DNA of 25,311 nt from a virus. The stretch is from the IMG/VR virus record IMGVR_UViG_3300020187_000194, positions 1 to 25,311 of that record; one strand, 5' to 3'. The position numbers and the translations under genes are program-made. A model generated the notes under the pieces. That model was not told the origin of the DNA and did no database searches. It saw only the letters and a list, made by a program, of their open reading frames with translations. Each line of letters opens with the position of its first letter. Position 1 is the stretch's first letter. Below, piece by piece: positions 3,015 to 25,311 of the stretch.

Positions 3015-3548
3015 TCAGAACTCCCAACCCATAGCATCAAATTCATTTGCCTTTATTTCTCTACGTTGTGATTCTGTTATTCCAGTAAGTGGATTAGGTC
3101 TATCAGGTTTTGTAAACGTATCAAACGTATCAACCCTCGTATCACCTCCATTTCCATTCCCATTATCATCATCATTATCATTGTCATTATCATTGTCATT
3201 ATCATTGACGAAACGGTCTCGTATAATTTCTAACGGTGTCGTTACGGTATCGTTCGATGTCGTTACGGTATCGTTATTTGTTTTAACGGTATCGTTTAAT
3301 TTTTGACGATTACGTTTACCTATTTTTTTCATATTATCAGATTTCTTTTGATACATTTCAGCATCTTTGTCTAATAAGAATTCCATACTCGTCCAACACA
3401 TTTTTAGCATTGGGGTTGTTAATACTATTTCTTCACCATTTTGGTATCGAAATAAATTCATTAAAATTGTTCCTTGTTCTTCTGGGGATAGTAATTCCAT
3501 TTGCTTCCTCCAGCTGTTGTAGATGTAAAATCTTTTCTTGTTTTCCAT
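3015..3548 (-). CDS. DUF6291-like phage protein with NDTV and ND repeats
   Basis: The first ~95 residues match the DUF6291 layout found in phage replication-associated proteins. It has an aromatic start (KRFYIYNSWRKQMELLSPEE), then 'GTILMNLFRYQNGEE', then 'MLKMCWTSMEFLLDKDAEMY', then a Lys/Arg/Asn-rich linker. These proteins often stand where DnaD/replisome-organiser genes occur. The C-terminal half is unusual: four near-copies of an NDTV unit, then a run of alternating Asn and Asp that becomes Asn-Gly. It ends with a short conserved-looking tail (GITESQRREIKANEFDAMGW), which may be the binding part of a replication protein. ATG at 3548 follows an A-rich leader and has no Shine-Dalgarno sequence. 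Confidence 0.6.
   Translation of the reverse strand: MENKKRFYIYNSWRKQMELLSPEEQGTILMNLFRYQNGEEIVLTTPMLKMCWTSMEFLLDKDAEMYQKKSDNMKKIGKRNRQKLNDTVKTNNDTVTTSNDTVTTPLEIIRDRFVNDNDNDNDNDNDDDNGNGNGGDTRVDTFDTFTKPDRPNPLTGITESQRREIKANEFDAMGWEF
3158..3308 (+). repeat. Tandem repeats inside the DUF6291-like gene
   Basis: Two repeat types lie next to each other. From about 3158 to 3209 there is a six-base microsatellite of the form CATTAT/CATTGT, which encodes the Asn-Asp run on the minus strand. From about 3235 to 3300 a longer unit containing CGGTATCGTT occurs four times in diverged form and encodes the NDTV units. Such tracts can vary in copy number by slipped-strand mispairing. Confidence 0.8.
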
Positions 3549-3661
3549 TGTTATTTATTATTAAAAGGTAAAACCCAAAACTAGGCTGGTGAGAGACAGA
3601 CACTAGTAATGGGTTCTTAATATATTGTAATACAGCTCTCACTCTGTTCATATTATACATA

Positions 3662-9463: not shown

Positions 9464-10009
9464 TTAGGATACAGTGATCCCTGTTAATACTCCACTTAAG
9501 CTAGATCCACTTACTTCACTTGCTGGAAACGGCTCGTCTCCTGTAAATGTTAGTGTGTATCCATTAAGATCTCCAAAAGCTGTCCCGGTTTGTCCAGTTC
9601 CACCTGATAATGTCATACCGTTTTCTTGACCAATGTAGAAAAATTGTCCTACACCACCATCTTCGGTACCATTATTCGTTTGAACTATCATTTTAAGGTC
9701 TGGATTTTGAGCCAATACCTTAACTTGATTACGAGTTGACGACTGTAGTTTTTGGAATGGTGCGTTTACTACTTGTTCGTAATAAACAGTTCCATTTTCA
9801 ATACTACTGTTAATAGTTTCTGTAAAGTCACCTGTGTTTTTAGCTAATTCAAATAAGAAGAATTCACCTGATCCACTAATGTCTGTTATTAAACCATTAT
9901 CTGCGCCTGTTACTGAAACAACTGAACCACTTAAAATATAAATTTGACGTAGACCTCCCATGTTGTCTCTACAACCTAGTTGAAATCCACTTGTAATATC
10001 ACATGCCAT
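9464..10009 (-). CDS. Major tail tube protein
   Basis: A 181-aa protein with the pattern of Bacteroidetes siphovirus tail tubes. The start MACDITSGFQLGCRDNMGGL has a paired-Cys opening. 'RQIYILSGSVVSV', 'FFLFELAKNTGDFTETINSS' and 'ENGTVYYEQVVNAPFQKLQS' form the central sandwich. The tail 'VKVLAQNPDLKMIVQTNNG', 'FFYIGQENGMTLSGGTGQTG' and 'FGDLNGYTLTFTGDEPFPA' is the usual C-terminal half. Such proteins stack as hexameric rings around the tape measure protein. The location directly after the major capsid gene, 36 bases away, suits a very abundant product. The absence of a sheath gene in the window argues for a non-contractile tail. Confidence 0.85.
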   Translation of the reverse strand: MACDITSGFQLGCRDNMGGLRQIYILSGSVVSVTGADNGLITDISGSGEFFLFELAKNTGDFTETINSSIENGTVYYEQVVNAPFQKLQSSTRNQVKVLAQNPDLKMIVQTNNGTEDGGVGQFFYIGQENGMTLSGGTGQTGTAFGDLNGYTLTFTGDEPFPASEVSGSSLSGVLTGITVS

Positions 10010-14693: not shown

Positions 14694-16496
14694 TTATCCA
14701 CTTATTTGTCTTCGTGCTCCTAATTTAGCTTCTGCTTCTTGATTTGATGTTATATCCCCTGATATTACGTATGCTTGTACCGCACTATTGTCTACATTAG
14801 TTTCAGGATTAGTACCAATGTCTATATTTGCTGATGGTATAGTTGGTGCTGAACTAGCTCCTCTAGGTAATGTAGGTGCACCACCAACACTTCCTCCACC
14901 ACTATCAGAATTTTTAATTTGTGATATACTTTTAGCTGCTCCAGCAATAGATCCTGCTATACCTAAACCTGCTGATACAGTGTTAATAGTAACCCAAGGT
15001 TGACCTGCTGTAATTGGAGATGCTAATACTGCTTTTGCATTCGCAGCTGCTGTACTAGAAATAATTTGTCCTATACTAGCTGCTTGTTGTGCTACTACTG
15101 CTGCGATTTGTAATTCCTTACTTTCACCTGCTAATTGACCTAATAATTGTCCAAATTGACCTACTAAACCTATATATGCTGATTCTAATTGTGCTTTACC
15201 ATCAATTTCAGCCATTTTAGCATCAATAGCATCTTGTGCTTCTTGATCAACGATTGCTTTTTGATTAGCCTTATCGTTTAATGCTGCTTCAGTTTTTACT
15301 TGTGTATAATAATCTCTTACTGCTTGTATTGCTTCTTCATCAGCACCTAATTCTTCTAATTCAGCTAATTTACGTTCCTCATCTAATTCAGCTTTTGCTA
15401 ATTCAGTTTCTGCATCACGTTCCTCTATCATGTTAAGGAATTCCTGCTTTATATCATCAATAGTTTTTAATCTATCAACTTCAGCTTGTGCTAAACGTTC
15501 TGTTTCAGCCTTTTCCTCATCTAATTTCTTTTGTGCTGCTGCTTCGTCTTCTGCCTTTTGTTTTTCCCTAGCTGCCTTACGTTTTGCTCTTCTATCTGCT
15601 GCTGCTTTATCACGAATATCTTGTGCAGCTTTAAGTTGTGCTGCTTCAAATGCTGCTGCATCTGCTTCTGCATCTTTTCTTTCCTGACTACCTTCTAATG
15701 TTAATGACGTTAGTAAACGTTGTTTTTCGCGTTCAATTTCTACAGTCGATTCACCTGCTGCTTTACGTACTTTAAGCTCATTATCAATGTCTTTGACACG
15801 TTGTTCTGATGCTGCTTTAGCTGCTGCTGCTGCTTTTTCTTCTGCTGTAGCTGTTAGACCTAATGCTTCACCTACTGATGTAACTAATCCTTTAAAGAAC
15901 TGGAATACTTTATTTACAGCCTCAAATTTATCTTTTAATGCAATTACTAAACCAACTAATGTTGTAATTGCTAATATTGTTAAACCAATTGGATTTGCAG
16001 CTAATATAGCGTTAAATGCTCGTTGTGCTAGATTTAATACTTTTTGTCCTGCAGCAAATAATTTTGCTTTTGTACCTGCTACAGTAAAGTTTTTAGCTAA
16101 TTTACCTACACCTTCAGATACATCTTTTATACCCATACCAAATGCAATTGCATTGGTTGCTTGTGCAGTTAATTTATCAAATTCTTCTGATTCAATACCT
16201 AATAGTCCTACAGCACCAGTCAAACCAGCTACAGAACCTGCTACAACTTTAATTGCACCATCTGCTACTTCTAGTTTTTTATCTAATGTAAAGCCTTCAA
16301 CTGTTTGCTGTGTTGCAGCTAATTCTTTATTTAACTTCTGAATATTACCAGCTGCCTTATCAAATGCTGCACTACCAACACCTACTTCCTTAATTTCCTG
16401 ATTCAGTTCATTAAGTTCCTGTTCTATTTGCTGAATCGTTCTTGATGAAGCTCCAGCATTTACATTAATGTCGTAATTTATAGTTTGTGTTGCCAT
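14694..16496 (-). CDS. Tail tape measure protein
   Basis: A 600-aa protein. The N-terminus begins 'MATQTINYDINVNAGASSRT', then heptad-rich coiled coil at residues ~20-70. Hydrophobic segments follow ('GSVAGLTGAVGLLGIES' and 'ILAANPIGLTILAITTLVGLVIAL', ~165-190), as usual for tape measures that insert into the host membrane. From ~215 to ~430 comes a long Ala/Lys/Glu coiled coil. The C-terminal region has Gly-rich hydrophobic stretches (SAGLGIAGSIAGAAKSISQI) and ends with 'VQAYVISGDITSNQEAEAKL', a common tape measure ending. The length sets tail length; by the usual 1.5 Å per residue it implies a short siphovirus tail near 90 nm. A shared AATAAATATTTATT box lies just 5' of the ATG. Confidence 0.85.
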   Translation of the reverse strand: MATQTINYDINVNAGASSRTIQQIEQELNELNQEIKEVGVGSAAFDKAAGNIQKLNKELAATQQTVEGFTLDKKLEVADGAIKVVAGSVAGLTGAVGLLGIESEEFDKLTAQATNAIAFGMGIKDVSEGVGKLAKNFTVAGTKAKLFAAGQKVLNLAQRAFNAILAANPIGLTILAITTLVGLVIALKDKFEAVNKVFQFFKGLVTSVGEALGLTATAEEKAAAAAKAASEQRVKDIDNELKVRKAAGESTVEIEREKQRLLTSLTLEGSQERKDAEADAAAFEAAQLKAAQDIRDKAAADRRAKRKAAREKQKAEDEAAAQKKLDEEKAETERLAQAEVDRLKTIDDIKQEFLNMIEERDAETELAKAELDEERKLAELEELGADEEAIQAVRDYYTQVKTEAALNDKANQKAIVDQEAQDAIDAKMAEIDGKAQLESAYIGLVGQFGQLLGQLAGESKELQIAAVVAQQAASIGQIISSTAAANAKAVLASPITAGQPWVTINTVSAGLGIAGSIAGAAKSISQIKNSDSGGGSVGGAPTLPRGASSAPTIPSANIDIGTNPETNVDNSAVQAYVISGDITSNQEAEAKLGARRQISG

Positions 16497-23085: not shown

Positions 23086-23586
23086 TTATGTTATTGTTGC
23101 TCCAGCTGATGTTGCTGCAGCATTAATGTCTATTATAATATCCTTTTCAATTCCCGCTGTTAGTGCTGCTGTACCAAAATTAGCAGCTGCGTTTTCAATT
23201 GACTCCATTATAAATGGTTTTTTGCTATATTTTTTAACACCTCGTTTTTCTATGCTTTTTGCTATTGCAAATGCAAATGATTTAGGTGATTTAAATGTTG
23301 ATGGTATTGGTATTTTTTTACGTTTAATCCATCCTTCAATAGGACGAATAGGAGGCATTCTACCTGCACGTCTACCTGGTCCACCATCTTCTAATAGTTC
23401 ACCATACCATAACATTGATACTTGTAATACTTCCTGATCTTTCTTCTTAATAATATTCTGAGTAATAGATCTAGCTAAATCACCTGTATTGACAGATTTA
23501 TTCTCAAACAATTGATTTTGCATTTCATCAATTATTCGTTGACCAAAGTCTTTAAGTGCTATGTCTGTATTCTCAGTTGTCTCCAT
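23086..23586 (-). CDS. HK97 gp10-like head-tail joining / tail completion protein
   Basis: A 166-aa protein with the HK97 gp10-like layout: an N-terminal helix ('LKDFGQRIIDEMQNQLFENK'), then 'VNTGDLARSITQNIIKKKDQE', then 'VSMLWYGELLEDGGPGRRAG'. 'MPPIRPIEGWIKRKKI' follows, then a C-terminal helical part ('FAFAIAKSIEKRGVKKYSKK' and 'PFIMESIENAAANFG'). Members bridge the head completion ring and the tail tube during assembly. The motif 'P..PIE.WI.RK' is especially typical of phage versions. It is one base away from the 485-aa gene's start and directly follows the 152-aa gene with no gap, which supports one operon. Confidence 0.7.
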   Translation of the reverse strand: METTENTDIALKDFGQRIIDEMQNQLFENKSVNTGDLARSITQNIIKKKDQEVLQVSMLWYGELLEDGGPGRRAGRMPPIRPIEGWIKRKKIPIPSTFKSPKSFAFAIAKSIEKRGVKKYSKKPFIMESIENAAANFGTAALTAGIEKDIIIDINAAATSAGATIT

Positions 23587-24045
23587 TTATACTTTAGGAA
23601 AATTACAGTAATCATAAATACCACTTTCTGTATATTGTATTGTAGCTACAAAGCCATATACTCTATCCATAAATGCTTCTAATGTTGGTGTTATACTCTG
23701 TATATCATAAGATACACCTTTAGATTGATTATCACTAGGCGGTCCCCAATTCATGTAACCTCCAAAATCATATAATGTTTGTTCCATCTTAGACATTACT
23801 GCCTCAGGTGATTGGGTACTTAATTTAGGAACATCTAAAGCATATAATTCAAATGCTAATATTCTTAAACGTGTGTCTTGTGAGTATCCAGGTGATTGTA
23901 ATGGTCTTAGAAAAACATAAGGATACTTTATATTTTGTGATGATGAATCTAAAAAATCGATACTACCGAAGGCAAATGAATTTACATACTCATGTGCATC
24001 AGCAGCTGATCTAAATGTTTGTACTATGTTTTCTAATGATGTCAT
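23587..24045 (-). CDS. Tail terminator/completion-like protein, 152 aa
   Basis: The sequence resembles the small alpha/beta proteins that cap the tail tube in Bacteroidetes phages: 'FRSAADAHEYVNSFAFGSID' near the N-terminus, then 'IKYPYVFLRPLQSPGYSQDT', 'LAFELYALDVPKL', and the helix 'EAVMSKMEQTLYDFGGYMN'. 'RVYGFVATIQYTE' forms the last strands. The arrangement (helix, YP strand, 'D-V' strand, long helix, 'W' loop, final strands) matches tail terminator/neck proteins. It begins one base inside the previous small gene (TAATG overlap) and ends exactly where the gp10-like gene starts. Confidence 0.6.
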   Translation of the reverse strand: MTSLENIVQTFRSAADAHEYVNSFAFGSIDFLDSSSQNIKYPYVFLRPLQSPGYSQDTRLRILAFELYALDVPKLSTQSPEAVMSKMEQTLYDFGGYMNWGPPSDNQSKGVSYDIQSITPTLEAFMDRVYGFVATIQYTESGIYDYCNFPKV

Positions 24046-24224
24046 TACTCTTCTATTTTAGTTTTCTTACTTGGTTTTACTGCATCAGGATCTCCTGCTG
24101 CTATACAGTCTTTAACCAATGATAATTGACTCATTAGTTGTGCTGCTATTCTGTTTGCATCAAAACCAGCTATATGTCTTTTCCATACTTCTCGTCTATC
24201 TGCTTTGTTACAATTACATGCCAT
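24045..24224 (-). CDS. Small Cys-containing phage protein, 59 aa
   Basis: This gene runs from ATG 24224 to TAA at 24045-24047. The sequence starts MACNCNKADRREVWKRHIAG, continues 'FDANRIAAQLMSQLSLVKDC' and ends Lys/Glu-rich. The C-N-C opening and one later Cys may bind a metal. It fills the gap between the frameshift gene (7 bases upstream) and the 152-aa tail gene (one-base overlap), has the usual A/T-rich leader, and has codon use like its neighbours. I believe it is real. I recall small proteins starting MACNC in Bacteroidetes phages but know no function. Confidence 0.75.
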   Translation of the reverse strand: MACNCNKADRREVWKRHIAGFDANRIAAQLMSQLSLVKDCIAAGDPDAVKPSKKTKIEE

Positions 24225-24230
24225 AATTTA

Positions 24231-25078
24231 TTATTTTAGTTTAATTCGATTTCTACGTTGTTTTTCTGCTTGTGCTTCTAATAATCTATAATCTTTATCT
24301 ATTGCCAAGTAGTTTAAAACAAAATTAATATTTAATTTAGTGATACTAGCTTCTCCTGTGATATCGAGTATGTTTGTTTTGGCGAGCGAATATAATGTCG
24401 CAAACCATCCCCAATGTGAGTCAAAGCTTCCAGTGTCTGCCTCGTTAGTACTTCCCTCATCTTGTCCGTCTTCACTGTTTTTAAAGAGCTGAGAGAATTT
24501 ATCCAGTGTAAGTTGGCGGTGCTTAAAAAAAAATTCAATGCTCCTAAAGCAAATCCTGCTGGTAAATCTTTCATTACCTCAGCATCAACATATCTTTCAT
24601 CATTGTTATACTCTGTTACAGTATACCATTTAAATACGTTATCTACCTTGTTTTGCATTAATTGAACATTATGTTTTGCCTTAAATTTTAACTTATCAAA
24701 TCTGTGATTAACCACAGGTCGATATAATACCGCCATTATCTCATGTAAGTTTTTATTTGGCTCTTTACATAGTGTTTCTAAATCAATAAATTCACCCATA
24801 GACATAGTTGAGATATCTACATAACCATAATTTGTACCTTTGTGTTCCCACATAGGATAAAATTTAGCTGTAGCATCTACTCGTTCACTAAAGTCTTTAC
24901 CGACCTTACCTAAATCGCTTATTGCCCATGTTTTAATTTCTTCCTCAGGTATATCAGTGAACACATGAATTGTTCTAATCATCTTACCTAATTCAGATAA
25001 ATGCTCTAAGTTTTGTAGTTTTTGAAATCTATCAATTGACAAATACTCAGGTATTTCTATATTATAATTCTTCTTCAT
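24231..25078 (-). CDS. Tail-assembly-chaperone-like protein, full-length product through a -1 shift (282 aa)
   Basis: In the -1 frame after the slip at 24524-24533 the sequence remains coding for 97 more codons to TAA at 24231-24233. The added part has an acidic linker (NSEDGQDEGSTNEADTGS) and then 'FDSHWGWFATLYSLAKTNIL', 'ITKLNINFVLNYLAI' and 'DYRLLEAQAEKQRRN'. The 'WGWFATLYSLA....D' and 'LNIN..LNYLA..KD' patterns fit the conserved C-terminus of a Bacteroidetes phage protein family. Frame-0 residues 1-185 supply the matching N-terminus, 'MGEFIDLETLCKEPNKNLHE' and 'IMAVLYRPVV'. So the 282-aa fusion looks like the ancestral protein. Either the ribosome shifts at the T9 run or one base is lost/added there. 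The tail-assembly-chaperone role is by analogy only: no tape measure gene follows directly. Confidence 0.6.
24332..25078 (-). CDS. Unshifted product of the same gene, 248 aa
   Basis: Reading straight through the T9 run gives a 248-aa protein. Its first 185 residues are shared with the 282-aa form. The last 63 (from 'STANLHWINSLSSLKTVKTD' to 'SISQEKLVSLN') look like out-of-frame translation: the same bases make far more typical protein in the -1 frame. Length and start (ATG 25078 after the AATAAATATTTATT box, 37 bases after terL) are otherwise normal. If the shift is programmed, this is the major form. If the run contains a sequence error, this form does not exist. Confidence 0.5.
   Translation of the reverse strand: MKKNYNIEIPEYLSIDRFQKLQNLEHLSELGKMIRTIHVFTDIPEEEIKTWAISDLGKVGKDFSERVDATAKFYPMWEHKGTNYGYVDISTMSMGEFIDLETLCKEPNKNLHEIMAVLYRPVVNHRFDKLKFKAKHNVQLMQNKVDNVFKWYTVTEYNNDERYVDAEVMKDLPAGFALGALNFFLSTANLHWINSLSSLKTVKTDKMREVLTRQTLEALTHIGDGLRHYIRSPKQTYSISQEKLVSLN
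24524..24533 (-). other. Slippery site: T9 run ending in T-TTT-TTA
   Basis: The minus strand reads, in frame, AAT TTT TTT TTA AGC. T-TTT-TTA is the same heptamer as the HIV-1 gag-pol slippery site, and T-TTT-TTT overlaps it. A -1 slip re-reads base 24524 and enters the long downstream frame. CACTG then CAGTG arms lie downstream and could form a weak stimulatory stem. This is a candidate, not a demonstrated, site. Confidence 0.55.
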
Positions 25079-25115: not shown

Positions 25116-25311
25116 TTACATTACCCCGAACCTTGGTTTTGTTTGTCTAGCAGCTGGACTAATATACATTTTATTTGATTGTATTTCGTTTCTAGCCTTA
25201 TTTGCTAACATTAAACTATCAACTATATCATCATGTAATCCATTTTGGTGTGTAAATGATAATTTACCATTATTAGATAATTTGTAAGTATACAATGATA
25301 ATTCTTTATAT
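25116..25311 (-). CDS. terL: Terminase large subunit, C-terminal end (cut by window edge)
   Basis: The frame enters from the right edge and ends at TAA 25116-25118, giving 64 residues. 'YKELSLYTYKLSNNGKLSFT' followed by 'HQNGLHDDIVDSLMLANKAR' is the standard end of the terminase RNase-H-like nuclease domain. The HDDIVDSL sequence carries the last metal-binding Asp of the nuclease triad. The following 25 residues (NEIQSNKMYISPAARQTKP) form a short tail. The enzyme powers DNA packaging and cuts concatemers at the portal. The ATPase half lies outside the window. Only the last piece is visible, but the motif is very characteristic. Confidence 0.85.
   Translation of the reverse strand, partial: YKELSLYTYKLSNNGKLSFTHQNGLHDDIVDSLMLANKARNEIQSNKMYISPAARQTKPRFGVM

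Follow-up and report, generated by a model that had tools for sequence, protein, structure and literature searches.

The window, that is the whole stretch of DNA that was analysed, is the IMG/VR contig IMGVR_UViG_3300020187_000194 of 25,311 bases, which belongs to a marine bacterial virus. On its minus strand, next to the gene of the terminase large subunit (TerL), lies a gene in which two reading frames overlap from a run of nine Ts (T9) onwards. The features of this locus are as follows.

24332..25078, minus strand: frame-0 open reading frame (ORF) of 248 aa, consisting of an N-terminal domain (residues 1-184) and a 64-residue frame-0 tail
24527..25078, minus strand: N-terminal domain, common to all predicted products (alignment A1 and hundreds of further relatives)
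24525..24533, minus strand: T9 run, the recoding site, with the frame-0 codons AAT TTT TTT TTA (from the sequence; at least nine Ts in 406/406 relatives with a -1 junction)
24231..24533, minus strand: -1-frame segment including its stop codon, with an acidic linker and a helical C-terminal domain (HWGWFATLYSLA...)
24332..24526, minus strand: frame-0 tail lying over the -1 segment, dual-coding (substitutions in the overlap are redistributed among the codon positions)
25116..25310, minus strand: C-terminus of TerL, directly upstream and cut by the contig end (phrog_24361, terminase, E=0.0016)
24045..24224, minus strand: small downstream gene of 59 aa (from the sequence; present in 8/107 representatives)
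23086..23586, minus strand: HK97-gp10-like tail completion/neck protein (Pfam PF04883, E=0.0005, at its cut-off; phrog_5, E=0.0017)
14694..16496, minus strand: probable tape-measure protein, ~7.7 kb downstream (phrog_3336, E=0.002)

On the sense (minus) strand the run is embedded in ...GCA TTG AAT TTT TTT TTA AGC..., and beyond it the -1 frame stays open for 97 codons until a TAA at 24233-24231. The predicted product depends on how many Us are read: nine yield the 248-aa protein, ten a fusion of 282 aa and eight a protein of 184 aa that stops immediately after the run. The preliminary description of this DNA, which had reported the T9 at 24525-24533, the 248-aa frame, the 97 open codons of the -1 frame and the 282-aa fusion, is borne out by the sequence in these respects. 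Its statement that either 8 or 10 Ts would restore one frame holds for T10, which joins both halves in one frame as T7 also does, but T8 leads to a stop.

Searches were performed with each half separately and gave homologues of both, after which profile searches added several hundred. In alignment A1 of the N-terminal domain (15 sequences), the relatives are 21-91% identical to the window. Of the loci collected first (n=21), the most distant of which had 26% identity, 21/21 contained a run of exactly nine Ts. Among the junctions in which the halves stand in a -1 relation (n=406, a count that includes overlapping fetches of some contigs), 355 contained T9, 50 contained T10 and one contained T12, whereas none had fewer than nine Ts; locus L154 is counted as T9. 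All 144 representatives (<70% identity) showed T9 or T10. The set of 406 takes in loci from flavobacterial genomes and the isolated Nonlabens phage P12024S; a T9 is present in the isolated Nonlabens phage P12024L as well. Queried with the window sequence itself, the phage collection gave no match at the DNA or the protein level, and the isolates were found through distant family members, their proteins being ~26-33% identical to the members used as queries. The DNA of the representatives (859 kb) contains just 13 other runs of at least nine Ts on the same strand. Set against these 13 runs, the 406 relatives that preserve a -1 junction with nine Ts or more exclude chance, and the pattern of conservation indicates that the recoding site at the T9 run is real and programmed.

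The preliminary description had allowed for a homopolymer error as the cause of the split, and had proposed to ask whether homologues are fused in one frame or carry a slippery run at the same point. The run was present at the junction in each of the 406 relatives with a -1 relation. A single relative (L092) lacks the T run and has both halves in one continuous frame, a natural fusion that would make the long form only; its fused ORF starts at about locus position 3660. This relative is what could be expected if the gene were truly single-framed and the shift were an indel due to sequencing, assembly or phase variation. However, the same -1 junction occurs in 406 relatives from many assemblies, in two isolated phages and in bacterial genomes, and selection acts on both frames of the overlap (see below). 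A sequencing or indel error, which is extremely improbable, was therefore rejected, since the relatives keep the junction as well as the run.

Dual coding of the overlap was assessed in 62-65 pairs of relatives. The third position of the -1 frame received 39% of the substitutions in the overlap versus 57% in the region where only the -1 frame is read. The difference, overlap minus -1-only, was -0.18 (bootstrap 95% interval -0.22 to -0.14). Because the -1 third-position share is lowered in the overlap, frame 0 must be selected beyond the run. To judge from these substitutions, frame 0 past the T9 is under purifying selection and both frames of the overlap are selected. The earlier claim that frame 0 loses its protein-like character at the T9 was thus mistaken. 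The frame-0 tail measures 60-66 codons in many relatives and 22-103 overall. Whether an early stop is selected in the frame that is read from eight Us was examined as well, and no such selection was seen.

A frameshift of one nucleotide backwards could be made by the ribosome or by the RNA polymerase. Classical programmed -1 ribosomal frameshifting of the lambda G/GT type, which is known for tail assembly chaperones (PMC5009743, PMC3711429), would take place here at T TTT TTT or T TTT TTA, the extra Ts being kept by coding constraints. In every representative junction the slippery heptamer T TTT TTT was present in frame, in agreement with the X XXY YYZ pattern. Ribosomal slipping at this heptamer requires seven Ts, and an eighth is explained by the Phe/Leu that is kept in the -1 product. 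The ninth T is not predicted in this way, yet it was missing in 0/406 junctions and was placed differently by clade. The codon phases observed were NNT TTT TTT TTN, NTT TTT TTT TNN and TTT TTT TTT TCA, and never a T8. In the 144 representatives the ninth T came from a preceding NTT codon only in 73, from a following TTN codon only in 65 and from both in 6. None of them had neither, where ~33 would be expected if the two were independent, a figure that is inflated by relatedness. The tree of these representatives contained 9 phase changes; 3-4 of the 5 well-supported independent pairs were compensatory and 0 contrary, a comparison that is underpowered (p about 0.125). The pattern of the ninth T favours, without proving it, selection on the total length of the run, which is what polymerase slippage predicts. 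Programmed transcriptional slippage requires a conserved A or T homopolymer of about nine or more, and T runs of nine or more were found in 406/406 junctions.

Elements that could stimulate a ribosomal shift were looked for on both sides of the run. Downstream RNA structure was not detected in 70-base windows of 107 representatives (mean folding z -0.04). Upstream, Shine-Dalgarno-like matches were commoner than in control windows. Codon-level tuning of such a sequence was not found, the relevant upstream Gly codon being used at the background level; for this reason the excess looks like a consequence of the conserved Leu-Gly-Ala motif. The ninth T argues against the ribosomal shift, and so to some extent does the lack of both downstream structure and codon-level tuning.

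Runs of nine As or nine Ts make bacterial RNA polymerases slip, whereas for the ribosome of Escherichia coli U_UUU_UUU is only a weak site (PMC5009743). In many genomes, A/T runs are avoided from a length of nine nucleotides upwards (PMC1088944). Since some slippage occurs already at T7/T8 in E. coli (PMC6260861), nine is not a universal threshold for it. Taken together, a run that never falls below nine Ts, occurs in several phases and has neither downstream structure nor codon-level Shine-Dalgarno tuning agrees with transcriptional slippage no less well than with a ribosomal -1 shift. Against slippage it can be argued that both T TTT TTA and T TTT TTT are valid ribosomal -1 heptamers, that the phase switches are few and that T9 runs elsewhere in these contigs are not clearly avoided. 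With all this considered, transcription is somewhat favoured over translation as the level of recoding. That a tail-assembly-chaperone-like gene is expressed here through programmed recoding, most likely by slipping of the polymerase on the T9, has a slightly better than even probability in our estimate, whereas the classical ribosomal shift is plausible at a lower probability. The preliminary description had proposed a ribosomal slip at the heptamer; the heptamer is indeed there, but slippage of the polymerase is no less likely, given the strict presence of at least nine Ts across phases and the absence of a clear stimulator.

The frame-0 product was modelled by AlphaFold2 with a mean pLDDT of 84.8, the N domain being of good confidence; most blocks up to residue 190 scored 86-98, while the final 18 residues stayed below 50. 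The model of the -1 segment was helical and of low confidence (mean pLDDT 66). This C-domain model was too uncertain for a fold search, and the search of the PDB (Foldseek, VIA-align) returned no usable match. In BFVD, some annotated tail assembly chaperones were matched weakly by fold; nearly all BFVD matches were uncharacterised phage proteins, including one from the Nonlabens phage P12024S. Neither half was assigned to a named family by Pfam and PHROGs, and no significant match to a known chaperone was found there. phrog_32199, of unknown function, matched 31/74 members, and one member had a marginal match to Phage_TAC_7 (E=0.049). The Flavobacterium phage 6H was tried as a relative and not counted, as its match was a weak structural one without a T9 run. 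In this phage (L262 10352-10927, minus strand) a possible C-domain-like ORF follows in another frame, interrupted by a stop and with a T6 only.

Chaperone genes of this kind are recognized by overlapping frames, a common N domain, a -1 shift, a location in the structural module of a tailed phage and a place just upstream of the tape-measure gene. All of these except the last were found at the sequence level. A chaperone of the G/GT type would further be expected to bind the tape measure and the tail-tube protein and to be missing from virions. The gene order TerL, recoded gene, HK97-gp10-like tail completion protein, large tail-region proteins and probable tape measure is common to many relatives; TerL is also the neighbour in the Nonlabens phages. 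In the 12 relatives listed, a tape-measure homologue lies ~4.7-8 kb downstream of the T run. The ~7.7 kb in the window had been put forward as a sign that the role may differ. This distance is correct, but it is common to the family and is by itself no argument for a different role. The recoded protein could be a head-tail connector or another assembly factor, in keeping with the position of its gene directly after TerL and ~7.7 kb from the tape-measure gene and with a chaperone family match that is not significant. This is unlikely, because the two-product architecture with an acidic linker and a helical C domain is typical of chaperones, and tail-completion and tail genes are co-located as they are with chaperone genes. 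The two nested products, the linker, the C domain and the position between TerL and the tail module suggest that the gene most likely encodes a G/GT-like tail assembly chaperone, by analogy of architecture and position and not by homology. In this the earlier proposal of a programmed -1-type site with a short and a long product in a chaperone-like gene is supported.

The lambda gpG and gpGT proteins use a GGGAAAG-type heptamer, and the chaperone site of phage P2 E/E+E' is T TTT TTG. As in lambda, a short and a -1-extended product with a common N domain are predicted from a tail-module gene, the long form carrying a small C-terminal domain. The present site differs by its nine or more Ts and by the selected frame-0 tail of 64 residues; moreover, the gene adjoins TerL, far from the tape measure, and a sequence relationship to gpG/gpGT was not detectable. 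The P2 tail chaperone gene resembles it in that the site of the -1 shift is rich in Ts, whereas here nine or more Ts are kept across codon phases, again without a detectable sequence relationship. In Shigella mxiE, Thermus dnaX and IS elements, a stretch of some nine As or Ts within the gene allows the polymerase to produce frame-shifted mRNAs (PMC5009743, PMC1088944). For those cellular and transposon genes there is evidence of slippage, whereas here it is inferred from sequence. The nearest named counterparts are gp38/gp39 of P12024S and gp40/gp41 of P12024L (Inhavirus), a homologous gene after TerL with a T9 and a -1-frame C domain. They are distant in sequence and are annotated as two separate hypothetical proteins, the shift not having been recognized.

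If the RNA polymerase slips on the T9, the majority of the transcripts would have nine Us and give the 248-aa protein. A minority with an extra U would give the 282-aa product, in which the N-terminal domain is joined to the C-terminal domain from the -1 frame, and transcripts with one U fewer would give the bare N domain of 184 aa. If lambda G and GT are taken as the model, the tape measure would be bound by the N domain, and tail-tube subunits would be brought in by the C-terminal domain. The ratio of the two products would then be set by the slippage rate.

Control of the chaperone ratio in tailed phages is a textbook case of ribosomal frameshifting. We judge it an even chance that, in a large and widespread phage family of flavobacterial type, this ratio is instead set by polymerase slippage at T9/T10, with an unslipped product that has its own selected, overlap-encoded tail. 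An open-access keyword search, of incomplete coverage, found no paper that describes a tail chaperone of a phage as being subject to transcriptional slippage. With nine Ts or more preserved in hundreds of divergent phages, this family would offer a natural test of whether the two-product solution has evolved through the polymerase. The annotation of the isolated phages is also corrected: the two halves, now listed as separate hypothetical genes, belong together. In the deposited genomes of P12024S and P12024L (L261 11995-12689 and L423 595-1289, respectively) the gene appears as two hypothetical proteins and the frame transition was missed.

Three other features of the window were observed. 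At 9464-10009, beside the probable capsid gene, a protein of 181 aa is encoded that is tail-tube-like by eye; phrog_19091, a family of unknown function, is all that it matches significantly. An ORF at 3015-3548 contains a long Asp-Asn repeat (NDNDNDNDNDNDDDNGNGNG). A second nine-base homopolymer is located at 735-743, where the plus strand has a T9, so that the minus-strand ORF 552-782 reads it as A9; this may be a further site of slippage or a product of chance.
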